Source of the DNA: Cytophagaceae bacterium | GTDB lineage: Bacteria; Bacteroidota; Bacteroidia; Cytophagales; Cytophagaceae | DNA length: 64,000 nt | Assembly (NCBI GenBank): GCA_029237685.1 | Contig: JAQZBV010000026.1 | Location: 1 to 64,000 of the forward strand | Reading direction: 5' to 3' | Shown: positions 4,890 through 40,669 of the stretch, one piece after another | How positions within the stretch are numbered: position 1 is the stretch's first letter | How the letters are laid out: each line of letters starts with the position of its first letter | The notes under the pieces: generated by a model | Database searches by the model: none | Told to the model about the DNA's origin: nothing | The model's input: the letters and a program-made list of their open reading frames with translations, nothing else | Translations under genes and position numbers: made by a program

Positions 4890-5075
4890 TGTTACTTAGA
4901 TTCAAATCTTTTAAATAAATCCCGAACAAACAAGTTTAAGAATCCAGGGGTTGTGGATTTTAATACACACTTTTTCTTACTATCTTTTCAGGTCTATAAG
5001 AGTTCTAAATTCCTATGATCTCCGACTGGAAATCAGGTCATGTTATTGAAAAAAGTTGGCCTAAACAACTGCAAA
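4890..5075. other. Intergenic, nothing recognised
   Basis: The region is AT-rich and presumably contains the promoter of the minus-strand regulator/kinase pair. No reading frame, hairpin or repeat is supported. Confidence 0.4.
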
Positions 5076-5195
5076 ATGGAGAACCATTCCACACAGCGCA
5101 CCGCTATCATTTTTATTTCCTTGGTCGTGGTTCTGTTTACGATTATTAGTCAGGGATTGCCGCTTCCTTTGTTGGTAAATAAGTTAGGTATCTAA
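5076..5195 (+). pseudogene. Fragment of a CPA1-type Na+/H+ antiporter
   Basis: A 39-codon frame reads MENHSTQRTAIIFISLVVVL and continues FTIISQGLPLPLLVNKLGI before TAA. This matches the characteristic last transmembrane stretch of NhaP/CPA1 antiporters (QRxxIIFISFxVVLFTxxxQGLTLPxLxxKL). Nothing antiporter-like precedes or follows it, so it is a relic of a deleted gene and not a functional micro-protein. The family assignment comes from memory of the motif and rests on one helix. Confidence 0.6.
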
Positions 5196-5291
5196 AACGA
5201 TAAGGTTTCAGTACTAAATCATGATTAATATAAAAGCCATACGTTTCAAACAATGACTTTTCTTCTTTAGAAAATTACTGAGAGAACTATT

Positions 5292-5351
5292 TTACGACTG
5301 CACATTAGTATAAAGAAGAAGTAAGGCCAGCAACAATAACCACTTCTGCAT
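5292..5351 (-). pseudogene. Signal-peptide remnant of a secreted protein
   Basis: In the 3' part of the 83-codon ORF, MQKWLLLLALLLLYTNVQS followed at once by TAA has the exact layout of a Bacteroidota signal peptide with a missing mature part. The upstream portion of the ORF (MKQKETKSPAVCFG...) overlaps another decayed frame and looks non-coding. I interpret it as the 5' end of a lost secreted-protein gene. A chance hydrophobic frame is possible. Confidence 0.35.
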
Positions 5352-5523
5352 AAATCTACCATGTGATAAAAAACATTCAACAATTGGCAAAAGATATACC
5401 GGTGGTTGGTGTTCTACAACTATTGGAATTACATTACTTTTTATTGAAGTATACGTTTTTTGTTTCATATATCGATTAAAGAAAAATAGTAAGGGAGTGC
5501 AGCCAAAGCAAACAGCAGGCGAT

Positions 5524-5826
5524 TTAGTCTCTTTTTGCTTCATCAGACAATTTCTGTATTGCTTTTTTCAGATTACCTATATCTTCTTTCACTTGGTCCT
5601 TAAATAAGATCCAACTCTCTTTTCTCTCAGATTTATAATCACAAACAAGTTTTTTGATGCTCAGAATTTTATCCTGCATCTCTTCAATACTTGTATGTGT
5701 GGATGGAGTCTTTTTTTTATCATCATTTTATCGGTTAGTATTCATCAGAGTCATATATGATGCCATAAACACCCAGATCATTAAAACTTACGAGATTAAC
5801 AGGCCTACATAAGTGTCTATTTTCAT
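5524..5826 (-). pseudogene. Small membrane protein with two in-frame stops
   Basis: Reading from the ATG at 5826 in a single frame gives MKIDTYVGLLIS-stop-VLMIWVFMASYMTLMNTNR-stop-NDDKKKTPSTHTS and then a charged coiled region ending QKLSDEAKRD before the final TAA. This equals 100 codons with TAA at codons 13 and 33. The reading frame stays coherent across both stops, with a hydrophobic helix followed by a Lys/Glu-rich cytoplasmic tail, so this is a once intact small membrane protein inactivated by point mutations. The last 51 codons (ATG at 5679) remain open and could be mistaken for a gene. No family recognised. Confidence 0.5.
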
Positions 5827-5980
5827 TTTTCAGATAGTCATTCTAAGAAAGGTACTTTAAGAGTCCTTATGGCTCTTTATGAAGAATTGCTAAATGCTTT
5901 GTTATTTATAAAAAGAAGATGGTTACACCTTTAATAACTATTCTACTCTACTTTGCGAAGCAACAGATGATTCGCTTAAA

Positions 5981-6178
5981 TTAACAAATCACACATTTAA
6001 TACCCACAATGGGAAAAGCCTCTGGAATACTGAGATTAAGAAGATACGGTAAAAGTAATTCCGGCACAATGCTATTAATTACTCCTATAGTGACACCTAT
6101 TACTGCTCAGAGAATTAGTACTAATTGAGCCGCTTCATACTCTTCGAAGAAGGATGAGATAAAACTTTCCATTTCCAT
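5981..6178 (-). pseudogene. Small hydrophobic protein interrupted by TGA
   Basis: From the ATG at 6178 the frame reads MEMESFISSFFEEYEAAQLV, then LIL, then TGA at 6109-6107, then AVIGVTIGVINSIVPELLLP and further to a TAA at 5983-5981. Removing the TGA leaves a 65-residue protein with one long membrane segment split by the stop. Same-frame hydrophobic coding on both sides suggests a recent nonsense mutation. Family unknown. It lies next to the similarly decayed 5524-5826 frame. Confidence 0.45.
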
Positions 6179-6279
6179 TTCATACCCTATTTTATACTAT
6201 ATTACAATAGCTCTAGGTTACCTCACTTACCTCATCAAGCCTATAGCTTTAAATATTCCCCTTCCAGGAATTCAAAGCT

Positions 6280-9200
6280 ATGATGAGAACAACCAACCCA
6301 GATGAAATCATTCGCTCCACTAATGCCTTTTGGGTAGTCGGTATTGGAGCATCAGCCGGCGGCTTGAACGCATTCAAACCCTTGATAAAAGCCATACCTA
6401 TTGATTCTGGTATGGCCTATATTATTGTTCAGCATTTAGATCCCAGTCATGAAAGTATTCTTGTAGAGTTGCTTCAAAAAATGACCACGATACCTGTTCA
6501 TGAAATTACAGATAAAGTAGAAGTCTTGCCAGACCATATCTATGTCATACCATCTAATAAATTACTGACAGCAAACGACGGCATATTGAACCTGACCGCA
6601 AGGCCAGTTAAAACACAAAAAAGTATTGACTTGTTTTTTACTTCTTTAGCGGAAGTTCATCAAAATCAAGCGATAGGTGTTGTCTTATCCGGTACTGGTA
6701 AAGACGGAACCTTAGGATTGCAAGCCATTAAGCAATTCGGCGGACTTACGTTTGCTCAGGAACAACAGACTGCAGCTTACGATGAAATGCCTCAAAGTGC
6801 CATTAAGCAAGGAGTAGTAGATTATGTACTCACACCTGAAAAAATCATTCATAAATTAATAGAATTAAATACTATTTATAAAAACAAACTAAGTTCGCCT
6901 GAAGATCCAGTAGAACTAAAAACTGAAACTGTTTTCCACAAGCAAATTTTAAATTTACTCGAAATACAAAAAGGTGTCGACTTTGCATATTATAAACAAA
7001 CAACAATAGGGAGAAGAATTGCGCGGAGAATGGATCTGTTGCACTTGGAGAAAAAAGAAGACTATTTCAACTACTTGAAAGAGAACAATACAGAGATCGA
7101 GTATTTGTACCAAGACATGCTAATCTCGGTTACGGATTTTTTTCGTGACCCTCTGATGTTTGATGCACTTTGTAATAAGGTAGTGCCGTTACTTACTGCA
7201 AACAAAACAAACAATGAAAGTGTGCGCGTTTGGATTGTTGGTTGTTCAACCGGACAGGAAGCCTATACCATCGCCATGTGCCTCTATGAGTTCATCTCAC
7301 AAGAAAACAACAAAGTTCAAATACAACTATTTGCTACAGATCTTTCCGAAATAGCTATCGCTAAAGCTCGTGCTGGATTTTATTCAGCCAGTGAAGTGGA
7401 GAACATTTCAGAAGAACGATTGAATCGTTTCTTTTCAAAAACCCAAAACGGTTATCAGGTAAAAAAAATCATACGAGATCTATGTGTGTTTGCCACTCAT
7501 AATATTATCTCTGATCCACCTTTTGCGAAAATGGATCTGGTCAGTTGCAGAAACGTACTTATTTACATGGACGCCTTTCTGCAGCGAAAAGCCATGACAA
7601 CTTTTCATTATGCCTTAAAAGAAAACGGAATATTGATACTTGGAAAATCTGAGTCGTTAAGTAAATCCGCCGATCTCTTTAACGTATTGAATGAACAAGA
7701 AAAAATGTATGCTAAAAAAATTGTATCTGGCAGGTTTATTCATGTAGCAGCTAAATCTCAAAACCACTCCTCGCCTAGTTCTGTAAAATCGATGAAAGAT
7801 CAAAAACTTAATGACGACTTTCAAAAAAACGCCGAACAAGTTATTTTGTCCAAATCACCGGCCGGAGTGATTGTGAATGAACAACTAGAAATTGTTCAGT
7901 TTCGTGGGGCCACCGGAGATTGGTTAGAGTCGGCATCTGGAAAGCCGAGTCTCAATGTTCTTAAAATGGCGAAGTCTGAATTGGCGATTGATTTGAGAAG
8001 TATTTTATTGAAAGTAAAAACAACTCTACAACCTCACGTGAAAGAAGGTATTTCTATGCTGATTCAGCATCAGATGACATGGGTGACCATTGAAGTGATT
8101 CCTTTGCTTCATACCATCAATCCATACTTCCTGATACTATTTACCAATGTTAAACAAGTTCCTATCCTTTCCTCCAAACATTCAACTACTGAAGGAAAAA
8201 CAGAAATTAATCCACATGAAATCCGTGCGTTACAATTAGAGAAAGAACTTTCTCAAACGCGTGATGACATGCGCACCATCACAGAAGATCAGGAAGCAGG
8301 TAACGAAGAACTATTAAGCGCAAACGAGGAGCTTGTTTCAGGCAGTGAAGAATTACGCAGCCTGAATGAAGAACTTGAAATATCCAAAGAGGAATTACAA
8401 AGCACGGTAGAAGAATTATCTGCTGCGAATGGAATATTACAGAACTGCGCGTTTTATTGGAAAGAACGTTGCTGGAAGATGACTTTCATGAAAGTTATGA
8501 AGTCAAACGTACATTCCCAGTCTTGGGAGATCGTATCATGCTTTTGAATGCGCGCAAATTTTTCAGCGAAGGCAATCATGAATGTCTGATTTTGCTGGCC
8601 ATTGAAGACATTACGGAGAGGAAAACAGTGGAAACGCAACTCAAAGCCAATGCTGACTATCTGAAAGCCGTATTTGAATCCAGTCCCCAAATCGCTACGA
8701 TCGCTTCTGCTGACGGTTCAGTGAATTATTTCAATCAATTCTTTCTTGACTACTCCGGTCTCAGCATAACAGAAGCTATAGATCGCGGCTGGCAATCTGT
8801 GTTGCGTCCTGAAATCTATCCGCAGTTTATGGAAATTTGGGCACACTCCATAAAATCCGGGGATAATTTTGACATGAAACTAATGCTCAAAAGAAGTGAT
8901 GGTACATACCGTTGGCATATTGCCCGAGCATTGGCTATACGCAATAGCAATGGAGAGATTACCTCGTGGGTAGGGACAGCTACGGATATCCACGATCAAA
9001 AAACATTCTCTGAAGAACTGGAGAAAAAAGTCATCGAAAGAACGCAATCACTTATAGAATCTAACTCAGCGATCGCACATTCCAATAAAAACCTAGAGCA
9101 ATTTGCTTTCATTGCTTCGCATGACTTACAAGAGCCTTTGCGAAAAATTAGAATATTTTCCAATATGCTAACGACGAGTTTCGGCAAACATTTGCCTAAT

Positions 9201-9884
9201 GAAGCAGTAAAATTAATTGACAGAATAAATACATCCGCCGAGCGCATGTCCGGGTTGATTAAGGCAGTGCTCAACTTTTCAAAATTAGAAAGTGCCAAGG
9301 AGCAGTTTTCAGAAGTAAGTCTGGATGATATTTTAACACAAGTATTAGAAGACTTTGATGTATTGATCACGGAAAAGCATGCGACCATTTCTAAAAATAC
9401 GTTATGCACCATTCAAGCCGTGCCGCTACAAATGACACAGCTTTTTCACAACATAATAGGTAACTCTTTAAAATTTACTCATCCCAATTTATCACCAGCC
9501 ATCACAATTGCTTGCCAAATCATGACTCCTCAAGAGCTCATGAACTACCCTGAGTTAAATCAAAAGCGATCATATTGTAAAATTACAATTGAAGACAATG
9601 GAATCGGATTTGAGAAAAAATATGAACACCTCATTTTTCAAATTTTCAAACGACTCCATTCCAATGAACAATTTTCAGGCACAGGAATTGGCCTGGCCTT
9701 GTGCAAAAAAATTGTATTGAATCATCAAGGGGGAATATCTGCCAAATCAAATGGGAGTTCGGGATCCATTTTTCACATTATTTTACCTTTAGTACAGCAC
9801 GTCATTTACAATATAGAGATTGAACCATTAGTGATAGCGTCTGCACCTGAGCTATTGGCTAAAGAGGATCCTAAGGGTGTTTAG
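6280..9884 (+). pseudogene. CheB-CheR-PAS hybrid histidine kinase, frameshifted by an internal deletion
   Basis: ORF 6280-8547 and ORF 8457-9884 are two halves of one gene. The first half has CheB methylesterase (Ser in GIGASAGG, His in QHLDPSH, Asp in GTGKDGT), CheR methyltransferase (GCSTGQEAY, DLVSCRNVLIYMD) and a coiled coil rich in EELxSxNEEL. The second half has the end of a PAS domain, a full PAS/PAC, HisKA ([14 protein letters not shown]) and HATPase (EDNGIGF, GTGIGLALCKK). At ~8430 the frame shifts by one base. In the second frame, EWNITELRVLLE matches the family motif (N)GxWNIPxLRxLLE, which normally lies tens of residues after the coiled coil, so about 45-60 codons are missing as well. 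Neither half can give the full protein, although the first could still make a CheB-CheR polypeptide. Confidence 0.8.
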
Positions 9885-9936
9885 TTGTTAGTTGTTAGTT
9901 GTTAGTTGTTAGTTGTTAGTTGTTAGTTGTTAGTTT
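9881..9936. repeat. Tandem heptamer (TTAGTTG) x7 plus partial
   Basis: Seven perfect copies of TTAGTTG run from 9881 to 9929, with a partial eighth. The first TAG of the array is the stop codon of the kinase frame ending at 9884. This resembles the heptameric simple repeats seen between genes in several phyla. Related arrays occur at 48321 and 63380. Confidence 0.95.
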
Positions 9937-10214: not shown

Positions 10215-13200
10215 CTACTTTGCAATGGCAATGAATACTTCAACTAAATGTTCTTTCTCATCATCCACAAGAGGAATACTATTTCCTTGTCCTGATCGCT
10301 CACCCATTTTCCAATACGATGCAGCTGCATGTACCTGGTAAACCGTCATGCGGTACATCGACTTTCCATAGCGGTAATTGATTTGTACCGAAGGCCATTC
10401 CAAAGGAAAGCATGGATTGAATCGTAACTGATCGGTATGTACTTCCATGCCTAGCAAAGAACCTGTAATGAATTGATACATCCATCCGGAAGAACCCGTG
10501 TACCAGGTCCAGCCACCGCGGCCTTGATGAGATTCATTGGCATATACGTCGGCAGCCATCACATAAGGTTCTACTTTATAGATATTGCTCGATGCTTCAT
10601 TCTCTGCATGACTCAAGGGCTGTACCATACTGAATAACTCCCATACCTTTTCACGATCGCCCATAGCGGCGAAAGCCATCAAGGCCCAGATGGCAGCGTG
10701 TGAATACTGTCCGCCATTTTCCCGCACACCGGGCACATAGCCTTTGATGTATCCGGGATTCATGCCGTCTACATTAAACGGAGGATCTAACAATTGAATC
10801 AATCGAAGATCTCTTCGTACCAAATACTTGTCCATGGAATCAATGGCCATTTCTCTCCTGTCCTTTGGTGCGGCACCAGATAGCACCGACCAACTTTGAG
10901 CAATGGCATCGATGCGACATTCCGTATTGTCTTTAGAACCCAAGGCAGTGCCGTCATCGAAATACGCACGCTTATACCACTCTCCGTCCCAACCCGATTC
11001 TTCGATATTGGCTTGAAGCAAAGCCGCTTCTTTCACACAACGTTCCGCAAATACGGTGTCACCTTGTTGCGTAGCTACCTTTTCAAAATTGACCAATACA
11101 TCATACAAGAAGAAGGCAAGCCATATGCTCTCTCCTTTTCCTTTATGCCCTACCTGATCCATGCCGTCGTTCCAGTCACCTGATCCGATCAGCGGCAAAC
11201 CGTGTACACCGAAATGCAAACTGTGTGTAATGGCACGTACACAATGTTCGTACAAGGTATCGGATAGATTACCACTCACCGGCAAATCGTACAACGTTTC
11301 TTCTTCAGGCAATAACAAACGACTCTCCAGAAAACCGACCGGTGTAGCCAACAGTGTTTTGTCTCCTGTAGCAGTCAAGTAACGGCTGGTAACAAAAGGC
11401 AACCAAAGCATATCGTCTGAGCAACGGGTACGTACTCCTCTGCCTTCGGGAGGATGCCACCAATGCTGTACATCGCCTTCCACAAACTGTCTGGAAGCAC
11501 TGAGTAAAATTTGTTGGCGGGCCAGCGAGGGTTGAGTATTTAATAAGGCTAAGACATCCTGCAACTGATCCCTGAAACCAAAGGCCCCGCCGGATTGATA
11601 AAATCCACTGCGTGCAAATATCCGGCAAGCAATGGTTTGATACGTAAGCCATCCATTGGCTAATGTATTCAATGCTACATCCGGTGTGCTCACCTGTACG
11701 GCGCTGACTGTTTCCTCCCAGTATTCTTTTACTTTTCTCAAAGATTCCGCCACAGCTTTCGGATTGGCAAATTTGAAAATAACAGCGTGTGCAGATTGCG
11801 CATTGATTTCACTTCCCATTTGGAAAATGATTTCCTTTTCTTCTCCATCCAGCAAATCTAGCTTCACCTGTATCGCTGCACAGGTATCCATACCTGCTCC
11901 TATCCTGCCTGACAGCTTGGAGCGATATAGCGCTCTGGGATCAGAAAGGCATTTGTTCTTCCCTATAAATTCTAAACGATCGGTTGTAAAACTTTGTCGG
12001 GGTCCCTCTACTTTAAAGAACATCACCCGTTCAGAAAAAGCAGAGTTATACCTGTTTCTAAATAGCAAGGCGCCATTTTGATTATTCTGTTCCGATAATA
12101 TATGCATGTTCGTCTTAGAACGCACATCTCCCAATATCACTTCCAGGTAACCGGTAGCTGATAATTTACGTTCCCTGCCGGAATTATTCTTTATTTTTAT
12201 AATGACAAATTTGATCGACGTTTCTTTATCTACAAAGGTGGTCATCTCTGTCTCTATTCCTTGTTCATCGTGTTCGAATGTACTGTAACCGAAGCCGTGT
12301 GTCACAATATAAGGAGACGCAGCTTTCACTGGGAAAGCAGAAGGAGACCAAAATAACCCCGTTTCCTCATCGCGCAAATAATAAGCCTCGCCTCCTACAT
12401 CGCTTACCGGATCATTGCTCCAAGGTGTCAAACGGTATTCATGCGCATTGATCGCCCAGGTATAAGCAGAACCGCTTTCTGAAACGACCGTACCAAAATC
12501 AGGATTGGCAATGACATTGACCCATGGTGCGGGTGTTGTTTGCTTTTGATCGATCTTAATTTTGTAGGCTTTACCGTCTTTTGTAAATCCTCCGGTTTCG
12601 TTAAAGAACAGTAAGTCTTCCGGTAAATTTAAGGTACTGACGATGTGTTCGGCTGTAACAGGTTTCACATCCAATAATACCGGCAATGCCTTTTCATTCA
12701 TTGACTTGCTCATCTGTTCTGACAGCGTGCCTTTGTTATCGTGGATGATGACACGTGCTACACTCTCAAACAAAATCCGGTCTTCAGAAGACAGTTGATC
12801 GGCCGATTTCACAAAGACTGCACCAGGTTTACTATAGACTGGATGATTGCTATTGCCTGCATCTGCCGTAATCAATCCGAGTATTTGGTCATGCAGGAGT
12901 TGTCGGTAAGAACCGTAGTCTTCATTCCAAATGACCAGGTCAACCGCTAAGCCCTTCAATCTCCAATAGGCGTGGGCCTGTATCATTTGCTTGACGAGGT
13001 CCATGCTCTCGGTATCGTACACGTGCAACAATACGATGGGCAGATCACCGGAAACAGAGTGACTCCATAATCCCGACTGACCTCTTAGATTGGATTGCAA
13101 AATATTGCTGTCTGCCCTCAGTGCCGGGTTGGCATAAATGACTGAAGCCGCTAAGCGGGCATACAATTGTGCATCGGATTCGGTGGCATTGATTTGACGT

Positions 13201-16200
13201 AAGAGCACCTGACTATGTGTCCAGGAAAGTTCAAAGGCACGATTCTTCAAATGCTGATCTCTGTACTTCTGCATGAGACTTTCACATCCCTCTTTTGTTT
13301 CACTGATGCCATAAATCAAATCTACTGTAGCGGTCTGATTGGGTTTGATGCTGATCCGATAACGAATGGCCAATACCGGATCTAATACAGATCCTTGTTT
13401 TCCGGAAAGCGTTGCCGCATCCAAAGCTTGGGGACGAGCAATGGTATAGCCTCTTCCAATAAATTGCATACGATCCGTTTCGTAGGAAATCGCTTCCACT
13501 GCGGCTCCGCGCACTTCCATGGAATGAAACATCCAAGGTGGCAATTCATTATGAGAACGAGCTCTTCGAGTACAGAAAATGGCTTTATGTTCAGGTACTA
13601 TTTCTGTCTGTACAAATAAATTACTAAAGGCCGGATGTGCTTCATCGGAAGCCTGACTAGCCATGACCACCTCTGTATAGCTGGTGATCTCCAATACTTT
13701 TACAGATTGTGTTCTGTTGGTCAATTTTATTTTCCTCATCTCCGTATCATCTTCCGGAGAAACGATGATCTCTGTATAAGTATCTACGCCATGGTCATGC
13801 CTTCGAAACTCTACATGGCCCTGAGAGAAAATAGCCTGGTAACTTTTAGCCGGCTGTAAAGTAGGCTGATGAGTGTTCGACCAGAAATTACCGGTACTGA
13901 TGTCTTTGATGTAGCAAAAAATTCCACGATCGTCTTTTGTCACGTCTTCCCTCCAACGCGTCACCGAAAGATCTTTCCAACGGCTGTATCCTGCGCCTGA
14001 ATTGGTAATCATCACTTGGTACCTTCCATTGCTTAAAAGCTGTACTTCCGGCAAAATGGTATTAGGGGTGTTGATCGTACGCACCTGCATATCGGTTTCA
14101 TTGGTATGCGTTTCTACCAAATCCGCCGTATGAGCATAGAACAAAGTCGCTCTTGGTATACGTTCCTGAAGCAATAACAAGGTCGCCTGAAAACGAAGTT
14201 CTGCGGAGAAACGTTGTTGCATTGGTTTATTCAACAACACATACGCCAGTGAAAGAAATCCCATGCCTTGATGATGCACCATGTATGAATGCACCACACT
14301 GTAAGACTTACCTCTCGGCAAACGACTTGCGGTATAATCAACCGCCTCATAAAATCCATGCTCTCCTTCAAATCCTTGTGCAGACAATTCCTGTAAGTTA
14401 TCACAAGCTTTTGCAGGGGATACCATCAAAGCCATCATGGAAGCATAAGGTGCGATGACAAGGTCTTCTTCCAATCCTCTTTTCAATCCTAATCCCGGAA
14501 CACCAAAGGCACGGTATTGATAGGTAAGATTGGCATCCACGGTATTGTAGCCGGATTCTGAAATTCCCCAGGGCACTCCACGTTGTGTGGCATACTCTAT
14601 TTGTCTCTTCACCGTTGCTTTAGCCGTTTGATGCAACAACGTATTCTCAAAAGAAGGCATCACCAATTGCGGCATTAAATATTCGAACATCGAACCGCTC
14701 CACGATAACAAAATAGGATCACCGCCTGAGTTGGTCAATAAACGTCCCAAGGCAAACCAGCTTTCCTGCGGAAGTTTACCTTGCGCAATAGCAACAAAAA
14801 TTCCTAATCGTGCTTCTGAAGCGAGCAGATCGTAAAAACTATTATCCTTCCGTTGTTCGTCTACATTAAAACCAATGCGCAAAAGCGCTGTTGATTTTAC
14901 ATATAGAAAATCGTAGGCCACATCGGAAAATTGCTCACACTGCTGTGCCATTTTATTCAGTGTAATCAAACGTTCCGCAGCGATGCTGTTGCCTTTTAAC
15001 AAACAATAACGAAGTAATTCCAACCCATCCTTTTCCTGAACACTCAGTCCTTGTTCTTCGTACTGTTTGATGTATTTCAGCGCCAAATCCGTTGTGCCTT
15101 CCATCGATTGCAAAGTAGGAATTTCGTTCAGGATAAGGAGTTGATCAAAACGTTTGGGAATGACCACTGCTTGCAGCCAGGAGTTCAGGTATATCAATTC
15201 TTCGAATTGCTGCTGCACCTGAGCTGCTAATTTCACTGTCCACTTATAGAATGTGGATTCTTTCTCCGCTTGTAGCTCTACTAATGCCTTTGCCCGTGCA
15301 TTTAATTCTTCCAGGTATTCTTTTTCTGTGCTTAATAAACGATGTTCATCGTTTGCGGCTACATTCAGCAAGGCTTGGATGTTTTCAATTTTTTCTATGT
15401 GCTGTCCTTTGGAAAGATCCCAAACGATTGAAGTGGTAGTGATTAAGCCGTCATAGATATTTTTAGTCATTACCGGCTGAACAGGTAAAGCTAAAAGTCC
15501 TTGGCGAAGTGTGAGTAAATGTCCAATGAGATTACCGCTATCGACGGTAGATACATAGCGAGGTTGTAGAGGCAATAAAGTTAACGTATCGTACCAATTG
15601 TAAAAGTGTCCCTGGTAACGCTCCAGTTTCATCATGGTTTGTAAGGTATGATCACAACGTGCAATCAAGTCACCGCCGCTGATGTAACCAAAATCATAGG
15701 CTGTGAGGTTAGAAAGTAAAGCCAATCCTATATTGGTGGGTGAGGTACGGTGAGCGATTACCGGTGTGGGTTGCTCCTGGAAATTATCAGGCGGCAACCA
15801 GTTTTCCTCCGCATTGACAAACTGTTCAAAAAACGACCAGGTTCTTCGGGCCGATTTGTGAAGGAACACTGTTTGTGCTTCCGGTAAAGTAAAATCTTCC
15901 GCTGCTTCCGGTAGACTAATGCGCCAGGCAATGGCAGGTGCTGATAACCACAAGACAAGTATAGGGGAAGCGACACCCAATGCTAAAGGGTGTGAATACG
16001 CCAGCCAGGCACTAAAAACGACTCCTAATAAGGGAGACATCCACATGGTATAATAAGCAGACCAAATGCCGTGATCAGTAACTATAGAAGAGGCCGAGGG
16101 GGTCCATTGCAATAATTTTTTCCGTGACACAATCATGCGCCAATTGGTACGCCAGATGGCATCAACATTGCGATAGGCTTCGTAGGGCAATACAGCTATT

Positions 16201-18917
16201 CCGAATATAAAACGAATGAGTACATCCCGCACTGAAATACCCACTTCAGATAAATGGGCTTTCAACGTCAGATCAAGTGGCTTGTGAATCAACTGCCATC
16301 CCGCTGCGGCCATAACAGGAAGTAGAATAATAAGTGTTACGGTCCATGTCCATAACCAAGGGAAGGGCAATACAGACCAACCCATCACTAACAAAAGCAC
16401 TAAAGATACAGGTAGTAAACTCCTGCGAATGTTATCAAAAAATTTCCATCGGGATAAAGTAGATAGTTTGTTTTGGTGCAAATGCCCGTCTGCTCCTGTA
16501 ATCAGGGGCAGCATCCAGGCGCCTATTTGCCAATCTCCTCTTATCCATCGGTGATGCCGCTTGACATCTGTGGTGTACTCAGCAGGACCGTCTTCATAAA
16601 GCATGACATCGCTGATTAATCCAGATCGGATATAACAGCCTTCCAATAGATCATGACTTAGAATACGGTTTTCCTGAAACACATCGTTCAATGCTTTTTC
16701 AAATACGGCTACATCATAAATGCCTTTGCCGATAAAAGAACCTTCACCGAATAAATCCTGGTAAACATCCGATGATAATCTGGTATAAGGATCAATACCG
16801 GATGTATTGCCTTGCATCTTCAGGTATAAAGAGGAAGTGGACTTTGGAATACCAGAACTTACACGCGGCTGCAGCACTCCGTATCCATCGGTCACCCGCT
16901 TGAGTTCTTCATTATAAATCGCATGATTCAAAGGATGAGCCATGGTAGCAATAAACTTCCACGCCGCTTCTCTGGGAAGTTGAGTATCGGAATCGAGTGT
17001 AATGACGTATTTGATATTGGTCAGTATTTCATGGTCACCAATCACCGTTGAAAATTCTCCCTTGCTCCGACCTCGCAGTAACGCATTCAATGCCGCCAGT
17101 TTTCCTCGCTTGCGTTCGTAACCCATCCAACGCTCTTCTTTATTGTTCCAGGTTCTTGCACGATGAAACAAAAAGAAAATATCGTCCGATGATTTTTTAT
17201 ACTGTTCATTCAACGCTTCGATACGGCTACAAACTAATTTCAACAGCTCATTATCCTGCGGCATATGTTCTGAAAACGCATCTGAAAAATCAGTCAATAG
17301 ACCAAAATGCAAATGGTTTTCTTTATTGGCCAGGAAACGAATTTCAAGCGCTTCCATCAACTGCTCTATGTAAGCAGGGCTTGAAAGCATGGTAGGTATC
17401 ACTACTAATGTGCGATACTCCACCGGAATACCTTTGGAAAAATCAAGTCGTGGTAAAAGCGACGGCCGCACCAACAGCGTCGCCACCCAATTCACCAGAG
17501 ATACGGCTAATTGAGCTGCTCCCGAAACAAATAATAGAGCCACTAAAGTCAGTACCCAGGTATTGTGCATTCCGTGACGATAAGCCACTGCAAACATACT
17601 TCCTGCTACGAGCAAGGTGAAAATACTGAAGGATAAGAGATACAGAAAAACAGGAATGTGTGAAGCGGTCCGGATCAGTTTATGTTTTATACTAAAACGT
17701 CGTTTAGCGACCTGCTCTGTTTGCTGTAGTCCTTTGTCTATAAGGTAATACCCAACATGTTGTTCTCTTATTGAAAAAGAATTTGTTTCCCTATGTTTTA
17801 TCGTTAAGTCTAAAACTTTTTGAGCCACTTCTGTCTCTGTCAGCGCAGATGATTTTGAAATAGATTCTACTACATGCCTGTAACGGTCTCTTGTTTCAAA
17901 ATCCATTTGAGGATAGATCCCGGTGATGTCTTGATTTAATACACGCTCTACACTGCTCAGTGCTTCCACAAAATCACGCCAGTCTGTGGCACCTAATAAC
18001 CGTAAGGTACCGATGCTGTTGCGCACAGATACCTGGTCGGAAGCTTGCTTTTGATTTTCTTGTCTGACCAGTTCATTGCTGCTCAACCCCAGACCCGAAA
18101 GCTGTTGTTCCATCCAACTGAGTGGCAAAGCCAATGCAGGACCTTTACCTTGCAATTCACGCGTAAAACCCGCAACAAAAGAACTATCCAGAAGTGGTTT
18201 TGAACGAGCCATGTCAGCAATGGTCAGAATCAAATCTCCTGGTTCTTCCTGTACGGTGGTCATCATTTTATCTGCCCAGTAGTCAGCCAGGTTATGATCA
18301 ATCATGTCCAATGCTACTTTACCTGCCACCCGGCGCAGGTTTTCAATTACAGCCAAACGTAACATAATGGGAATGGCCCATAACTCACCTAATGTGAGTA
18401 ACTCACGGCTTTGATACGCATTAAGGAAATCATTTAGGCTTTTTACATCTACCCTTCCATCACTGTGTGAAATAATTTCCAACACAATATCATACACCCG
18501 AGGCAATCCTTTAGAGATACCGTTAGCAAGGTATGGAAGTCCTTCACTGTATCCTTTAGGTAAATGTTTCCTTGCAATAACAACCTGCTCTTCGATCAGG
18601 TAAAAATTATCTAAAAGCCATTCTGCTGCGGGAGTAATGGTCTTTCCAGCTCGTATGCTTTCTACTAGAAGATTGCGAACTTCCAGCAATGTTCTCTCAT
18701 TATCATCCAATCGTTTCAACAACTGATCAGAAGAACGATGATTTAATAATTTATGAGAACCGGCTACAATTTTTCCGTGTACTTCCATTTGATCTGAGTT
18801 GTAAAGTTCAGATCGAAAAGGTTCATCATTGGTATGATTGCGAACAGCATAACCCCTAAGGAAATAAATACGCAACCGTGACAAGATATCAAAAACATTA
18901 GTAGGCGTAGCCTTCAT
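10215..18917 (-). CDS. ndvB: Cyclic beta-1,2-glucan synthase-like (GT84 / glucoamylase-like / GH94) giant membrane protein
   Basis: At 2900 residues this has the usual length of NdvB/Cgs proteins (~2800-2900). Order seen: a cytoplasmic N-terminal region, a hydrophobic pair near 400-470, a GT84 glycosyltransferase with VITLDSDTQLP and RHHRWIRGDWQI, further membrane helices (~830-1010), a glucoamylase-like (PF10091) domain with YMVHHQGMGFLSLAYVLL, two beta-sandwich modules, and a C-terminal GH94 phosphorylase domain with GFRDQLQDVLALL and GSGDWNDGMDQVG (catalytic Asp region). By family knowledge the enzyme polymerises UDP-glucose into beta-1,2-glucan, cyclises it and trims length, producing periplasmic osmoregulated glucans. 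Transcribed alone, with terminators on the 3' side. The exact linkage in this phylum is not certain. Confidence 0.9.
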   Translation of the reverse strand: MKATPTNVFDILSRLRIYFLRGYAVRNHTNDEPFRSELYNSDQMEVHGKIVAGSHKLLNHRSSDQLLKRLDDNERTLLEVRNLLVESIRAGKTITPAAEWLLDNFYLIEEQVVIARKHLPKGYSEGLPYLANGISKGLPRVYDIVLEIISHSDGRVDVKSLNDFLNAYQSRELLTLGELWAIPIMLRLAVIENLRRVAGKVALDMIDHNLADYWADKMMTTVQEEPGDLILTIADMARSKPLLDSSFVAGFTRELQGKGPALALPLSWMEQQLSGLGLSSNELVRQENQKQASDQVSVRNSIGTLRLLGATDWRDFVEALSSVERVLNQDITGIYPQMDFETRDRYRHVVESISKSSALTETEVAQKVLDLTIKHRETNSFSIREQHVGYYLIDKGLQQTEQVAKRRFSIKHKLIRTASHIPVFLYLLSFSIFTLLVAGSMFAVAYRHGMHNTWVLTLVALLFVSGAAQLAVSLVNWVATLLVRPSLLPRLDFSKGIPVEYRTLVVIPTMLSSPAYIEQLMEALEIRFLANKENHLHFGLLTDFSDAFSEHMPQDNELLKLVCSRIEALNEQYKKSSDDIFFLFHRARTWNNKEERWMGYERKRGKLAALNALLRGRSKGEFSTVIGDHEILTNIKYVITLDSDTQLPREAAWKFIATMAHPLNHAIYNEELKRVTDGYGVLQPRVSSGIPKSTSSLYLKMQGNTSGIDPYTRLSSDVYQDLFGEGSFIGKGIYDVAVFEKALNDVFQENRILSHDLLEGCYIRSGLISDVMLYEDGPAEYTTDVKRHHRWIRGDWQIGAWMLPLITGADGHLHQNKLSTLSRWKFFDNIRRSLLPVSLVLLLVMGWSVLPFPWLWTWTVTLIILLPVMAAAGWQLIHKPLDLTLKAHLSEVGISVRDVLIRFIFGIAVLPYEAYRNVDAIWRTNWRMIVSRKKLLQWTPSASSIVTDHGIWSAYYTMWMSPLLGVVFSAWLAYSHPLALGVASPILVLWLSAPAIAWRISLPEAAEDFTLPEAQTVFLHKSARRTWSFFEQFVNAEENWLPPDNFQEQPTPVIAHRTSPTNIGLALLSNLTAYDFGYISGGDLIARCDHTLQTMMKLERYQGHFYNWYDTLTLLPLQPRYVSTVDSGNLIGHLLTLRQGLLALPVQPVMTKNIYDGLITTTSIVWDLSKGQHIEKIENIQALLNVAANDEHRLLSTEKEYLEELNARAKALVELQAEKESTFYKWTVKLAAQVQQQFEELIYLNSWLQAVVIPKRFDQLLILNEIPTLQSMEGTTDLALKYIKQYEEQGLSVQEKDGLELLRYCLLKGNSIAAERLITLNKMAQQCEQFSDVAYDFLYVKSTALLRIGFNVDEQRKDNSFYDLLASEARLGIFVAIAQGKLPQESWFALGRLLTNSGGDPILLSWSGSMFEYLMPQLVMPSFENTLLHQTAKATVKRQIEYATQRGVPWGISESGYNTVDANLTYQYRAFGVPGLGLKRGLEEDLVIAPYASMMALMVSPAKACDNLQELSAQGFEGEHGFYEAVDYTASRLPRGKSYSVVHSYMVHHQGMGFLSLAYVLLNKPMQQRFSAELRFQATLLLLQERIPRATLFYAHTADLVETHTNETDMQVRTINTPNTILPEVQLLSNGRYQVMITNSGAGYSRWKDLSVTRWREDVTKDDRGIFCYIKDISTGNFWSNTHQPTLQPAKSYQAIFSQGHVEFRRHDHGVDTYTEIIVSPEDDTEMRKIKLTNRTQSVKVLEITSYTEVVMASQASDEAHPAFSNLFVQTEIVPEHKAIFCTRRARSHNELPPWMFHSMEVRGAAVEAISYETDRMQFIGRGYTIARPQALDAATLSGKQGSVLDPVLAIRYRISIKPNQTATVDLIYGISETKEGCESLMQKYRDQHLKNRAFELSWTHSQVLLRQINATESDAQLYARLAASVIYANPALRADSNILQSNLRGQSGLWSHSVSGDLPIVLLHVYDTESMDLVKQMIQAHAYWRLKGLAVDLVIWNEDYGSYRQLLHDQILGLITADAGNSNHPVYSKPGAVFVKSADQLSSEDRILFESVARVIIHDNKGTLSEQMSKSMNEKALPVLLDVKPVTAEHIVSTLNLPEDLLFFNETGGFTKDGKAYKIKIDQKQTTPAPWVNVIANPDFGTVVSESGSAYTWAINAHEYRLTPWSNDPVSDVGGEAYYLRDEETGLFWSPSAFPVKAASPYIVTHGFGYSTFEHDEQGIETEMTTFVDKETSIKFVIIKIKNNSGRERKLSATGYLEVILGDVRSKTNMHILSEQNNQNGALLFRNRYNSAFSERVMFFKVEGPRQSFTTDRLEFIGKNKCLSDPRALYRSKLSGRIGAGMDTCAAIQVKLDLLDGEEKEIIFQMGSEINAQSAHAVIFKFANPKAVAESLRKVKEYWEETVSAVQVSTPDVALNTLANGWLTYQTIACRIFARSGFYQSGGAFGFRDQLQDVLALLNTQPSLARQQILLSASRQFVEGDVQHWWHPPEGRGVRTRCSDDMLWLPFVTSRYLTATGDKTLLATPVGFLESRLLLPEEETLYDLPVSGNLSDTLYEHCVRAITHSLHFGVHGLPLIGSGDWNDGMDQVGHKGKGESIWLAFFLYDVLVNFEKVATQQGDTVFAERCVKEAALLQANIEESGWDGEWYKRAYFDDGTALGSKDNTECRIDAIAQSWSVLSGAAPKDRREMAIDSMDKYLVRRDLRLIQLLDPPFNVDGMNPGYIKGYVPGVRENGGQYSHAAIWALMAFAAMGDREKVWELFSMVQPLSHAENEASSNIYKVEPYVMAADVYANESHQGRGGWTWYTGSSGWMYQFITGSLLGMEVHTDQLRFNPCFPLEWPSVQINYRYGKSMYRMTVYQVHAAASYWKMGERSGQGNSIPLVDDEKEHLVEVFIAIAK

Positions 18918-40081: not shown

Positions 40082-40540
40082 TTACATCGTTGTTCCTGTT
40101 GTTCCTCCTGTAGTAGTAGAAGTAGTTCCTGTGGTACCTGTAGTACCTGTAGTACGGGTTGTAGAACCGGTAGAACGTGTAGTAGAAGTACTTTTTGTAG
40201 AAGAAGTTGTTTTGGTAGTAGATGTTGTAGCAGTAGTTCCTGTACTGGAAGTAGTGCCTGTTGTAGAAGTTGTTCTGGTTGTGCTGCCAGTCGTACCGGC
40301 TGTGCTCGCATCGGTAGTTCCGTTGTGAGTGGTGCTTGTCGTACCATCGTTACCAGTTGTGGTGCTTGTAGTGGATGTGGTTCCTGTCCCGGACGTACTT
40401 CCTGTACCAGATGTAGTCGGATTACCAGTAGTCTGCGCAGTGCTACCTGTTGTATCCGCAAATGAATTTGTTCTGGTGAAACTCAATAATCCAACAGAAC
40501 CGCTTAAACATAAAGCAATAAATAAATGACTCTTTTTCAT
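40082..40540 (-). CDS. Secreted Thr/Ser-rich low-complexity protein
   Basis: The ATG at 40540 (MKKSHLFIALCLSGSVGLLS) gives 152 residues with a signal peptide ending near FTRTNSFA. The whole mature part is Thr, Ser and Gly with scattered Lys/Arg/Asn (e.g. TTSTTKTTSSTKSTSTTRST), without Cys. It is probably extended and surface-exposed, and could be heavily O-glycosylated, since Bacteroidota glycosylate at D-S/T-hydrophobic sites (inference; few such triplets are visible). Open frames on the other strand here come only from the repeat. It has its own terminator. Confidence 0.75.
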   Translation of the reverse strand: MKKSHLFIALCLSGSVGLLSFTRTNSFADTTGSTAQTTGNPTTSGTGSTSGTGTTSTTSTTTGNDGTTSTTHNGTTDASTAGTTGSTTRTTSTTGTTSSTGTTATTSTTKTTSSTKSTSTTRSTGSTTRTTGTTGTTGTTSTTTGGTTGTTM

Positions 40541-40669
40541 GGTAGTAAAATTTTGGTTGAAGATTTCACAACACATTCCAAAGACCGTGCCTTTGCTATT
40601 CCTGCATTTATTTACACTATTTAATAAATGTTAAAGGGAAACAATTACTCTCACTGTGCAAAAAATCCA

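Follow-up and report, generated by a model that had tools for sequence, protein, structure and literature searches.

A CheB-CheR-coiled-coil-PAS-PAS-HisKA-HATPase kinase gene occupies positions 6280-9884 of the window (the whole 64,000-nt stretch of DNA analysed here), split over two reading frames. Has this gene been broken, and if so by what event, or does it now encode two working proteins? The preliminary description proposed a frame-shifting deletion arising from slippage between two copies of a short direct repeat.

Layout of the gene and its intact orthologue

The 5' ORF (6280..8547, frame 1, 755 aa) encodes CheB, CheR_N, CheR and a coiled coil ending EELQSTVEELSAAN, with the CheB and CheR domains matched in Pfam at E-values of 1e-54 and 1.7e-57. 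In frame 1 the last coiled-coil residues are STVEELSAAN, at 8430. The second ORF lies in another frame, open from 8427 to a stop ending at 9884; it starts EWNITELRVLLERTLLEDDFHESYEVKRTFPVLGDRIMLLNARKFF, reads EWNITELRVLLE, and contains the Pfam domains PAS_4, HisKA and HATPase_c. The two frames meet at GCGAAT/GG, that is GCGAATGG, at 8425-8432. The window copy has no complete PAS domain directly after the coiled coil, the first PAS being halved, and HisKA and HATPase_c are present but in a different frame from CheB-CheR and hence in a separate polypeptide. The features are as follows.

6280..8430, + strand: 5' part of the kinase gene, with CheB methylesterase, CheR methyltransferase and coiled coil to SAAN, 717 codons (Pfam PF01339, PF03705, PF01739; 82% amino acid identity to the orthologue, gapless)
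8428..8430, + strand: deletion junction; in the sister, AAT stands at each edge (left GCGAAT|CAG, right C|AATGG)
8428..9884, + strand: 3' part of the kinase gene, with the second half of PAS 1, intact PAS 2, HisKA and HATPase_c (Pfam PAS_4, HisKA, HATPase_c; 78% amino acid identity to the orthologue)
8431..8547, + strand: out-of-frame tail of the upstream ORF, 38 residues and a TGA stop
8538..8547, + strand: ATG that is in frame with the 3' part and overlaps the stop codon of the 5' part (ATGCTTTTGA); a putative reinitiation site

Whole-genome searches covered the window's genome and 38 relatives (39 genomes in all) and found one orthologue (G003:C134, 78% amino acid identity), in a metagenome-assembled genome of the same Chitinophagaceae genus (JAQBNS010000090.1; hereafter the sister). 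The sister gene is a single open frame of 1267 codons (L030:4033-7836), and its locus shares with the window a 2900-aa gene that is presumably NdvB-like (cyclic glucan synthase type). The window gene has the same domain order as the CheB-CheR-PAS-histidine kinase fusions of Bacteroidota represented by this 1267-aa orthologue. It matches the sister fusion at 78-82% amino acid identity in both halves and has the same NdvB-like neighbour, but 202 nt are absent from it and its frame changes inside PAS 1. No report from a literature search on this fusion class and comparable deletions is drawn on here.

Size, content and junction of the deletion

The deletion was placed using blast diagonals and codon registers. 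In blastn, window and sister align in two collinear blocks, which adjoin at window positions 8428-8430 and lie 202 nt wider apart in the sister; the register calculation likewise gives 202 nt missing, or 67 codons plus 1 nt. This comparison establishes the deletion and how large it is relative to the sister, and aligning the gene with an intact CheB-CheR-PAS kinase, as the preliminary description had suggested, bears out its claim of a frame-shifting deletion at GCGAATGG. The frame change and the missing codons were correctly called, whereas the estimated size of 45-60 codons was slightly low. The sister reads SAAN, then 66 residues, then QWDIPELRILLERTL, so the point at which the window has lost sequence is precisely GCGAATGG. 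Within the lost stretch is YAEAIVSTIREPLIVLDKDLRVKSTNSAFNKTF, which forms the N-terminal half of a PAS domain in Pfam; the stretch belongs to the region matched by PAS_4 at 741-849 in the sister. The 202 nt absent from the window thus correspond to the last part of the coiled coil together with the opening half of the first PAS domain, the half whose removal had been predicted. The Glu read before the Trp in that description comes from a chimeric codon; at this position three relatives in the genus have CAA (Gln). Programmed frameshifting as a source of the two frames was ruled out: with 66 residues gone, the product would not be recovered by a change of frame alone.

The deleted region is kept, with QWDIP, in a more distant paralogue of another genus member (G002, 48% identity), and the QWDIP motif region is kept in a match at a contig edge of a third (G001, 49% identity). 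Sequence was therefore lost in the window lineage, not gained in the sister. The missing PAS half was not found elsewhere in the window's genome, where the best match (35%) lies in another multi-PAS kinase.

The deletion might instead be an assembly artefact, or the allele of a minority strain in a metagenome assembly from a population whose gene is intact. The genome is a 93% complete draft in 199 contigs, and one genome of the window's species was compared. This explanation nevertheless appears unlikely: the genome contains the junction and its flanks only once, the 3-nt overlap at the junction is far below what a k-mer assembler could join on, and 202 nt cannot vanish through a single-base error. 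No duplicated junction flanks that could cause misassembly were found in the genome, and since the missing piece is also nowhere else in it, repeat collapse is an unlikely source of the deletion.

With respect to mechanism, the sister's left edge reads GCTGCGAAT|CAG and its right edge GACAATC|AATGGGATATT, the latter being CAA TGG (Gln-Trp) in all three same-genus relatives. At the junction register the two edges of the orthologue share only AAT (3 nt). Sharing of at least 3 nt occurs by chance in 7% of 202-nt deletions placed anywhere in this 800-nt region, and this makes it weak evidence for any microhomology mechanism; the AAT would fit either slippage or end joining. The proposal that two GCGAATGG-like copies slipped, a sub-question that does not compete with the deletion itself, would draw on the GCGAAT at the sister's left edge and the AAT at both edges of the junction. 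Against it, the right edge is C-AATGG in the same three relatives, and no repeat of at least 6 nt is common to the 80 nt around each edge in the sister. A GCGAATGG direct repeat pair was not found in the relatives, and the octamer is a product of the fusion rather than a pre-existing repeat. Repeats of some 6-8 nt or longer were thus not found at both edges in the sister, whose allele is that of a relative and not the intact form from the window's own species; the true ancestor of the window's species could differ from the relatives at the right edge. The repeat-mediated origin put forward in the preliminary description is accordingly very improbable.

Age of the deletion and fate of the two halves

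Apart from the deletion, no internal gaps or stops were found among the aligned codons (717 upstream, 484 downstream), with one gap at the very C-terminus. NG86 estimates of dN were 0.105 (upstream) and 0.124 (downstream), giving a dN/dS of about 0.07, which is rough because dS (near 1.5-1.8) is close to saturation. When unconstrained drift was simulated, 17% of runs at 0.01 substitutions per site left both ORFs free of stops, and at 0.02 this fell to 4%. The otherwise pristine state of both halves means that the deletion is very recent relative to the species split or that both halves are still under selection.

The second of these options corresponds to a deletion that yielded two still-functional proteins, CheB-CheR-coiled coil and a PAS-HisKA-HATPase kinase reinitiated at the ATG at 8538, which overlaps the upstream TGA. 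The overlapping ATGCTTTTGA is preceded by GGGAG, and the 448-aa product from this ATG would contain intact PAS 2, HisKA and HATPase; the conservation of both halves, whose purity would fit continued use as two proteins, points the same way. However, the ATG and the out-of-frame TTGA also occur in the intact sister gene (ATGCTGTTGA), where the same letters are incidental to MLLNA codons, so the overlap in the window is incidental as well. Conservation is explained equally well by a recent deletion, and the genus, with four genomes, yielded no split version of the orthologue. Retention of function by both products is thus improbable, and a two-protein system, with the free CheB-CheR protein and the reinitiated PAS-kinase acting separately, is even less probable.

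We consider it probable that a full-length CheB-CheR-coiled-coil-PAS-PAS-histidine kinase gene was broken recently by one 202-nt internal deletion. The ancestral gene would have been of this full-length type, in a Chitinophagaceae-type bacterium. The single deletion would have taken out the last part of the coiled coil along with the first half of PAS 1 and put the rest of the gene out of frame, leaving a 5' ORF whose predicted product is CheB-CheR-coiled coil with 38 out-of-frame residues, detached from the kinase core. The gene is presumably broken as a single kinase, with loss of function, and the deletion is probably recent, since both halves otherwise remain intact. Recent pseudogenes are recognised by an intact orthologue in a close relative, and the sister carries one in a single frame of 1267 aa, which makes the breakage recent and ordinary. 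Like recent bacterial pseudogenes from small internal deletions, as generally known, the window gene has one clean junction, a frameshift and an otherwise intact sequence, but its junction shows only 3 nt of microhomology and no demonstrable repeat pair. The window gene shows, in clean form, a sensor kinase soon after it was broken. This is ordinary gene decay; the window's genome holds dozens of paralogous kinases, and the case adds little beyond the normal turnover of signalling genes in Chitinophagaceae.

The surrounding locus

Decay extends beyond the kinase gene, as the neighbouring antiporter is only a remnant and a second kinase of the sister is gone. A 60-aa C-terminal remnant of a Na+/H+ exchanger (PF00999) lies at 5043-5219; the sister has an intact antiporter upstream of its kinase, and no intact copy was found in the window's genome. 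Between the remnant and the kinase, about 1 kb (5220-6180) is without convincing genes or a match in the sister. Immediately 3' of the kinase stop, at 9881-9935, the window carries a perfect 7-nt tandem repeat (TTAGTTG, 7.9 copies), where the sister has the second kinase gene (710 aa, L030:7864-9993) that is absent from the window. In G002 a response-regulator gene directly adjoins the NdvB-like gene, and antiporter and kinase are absent. The simplest reading is that an antiporter-kinase insertion common to the window's species and the sister is now being lost in the former.

The 2900-aa NdvB-like gene (10215-18917) is present in three of the four genus members, with 92% and 81% identity over the C-terminal 600 residues. 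Farther along the window, 40082-40576 encodes a small protein that consists almost entirely of Thr/Ser/Gly repeats (TTGTTSTTTG) behind a signal-like N-terminus.
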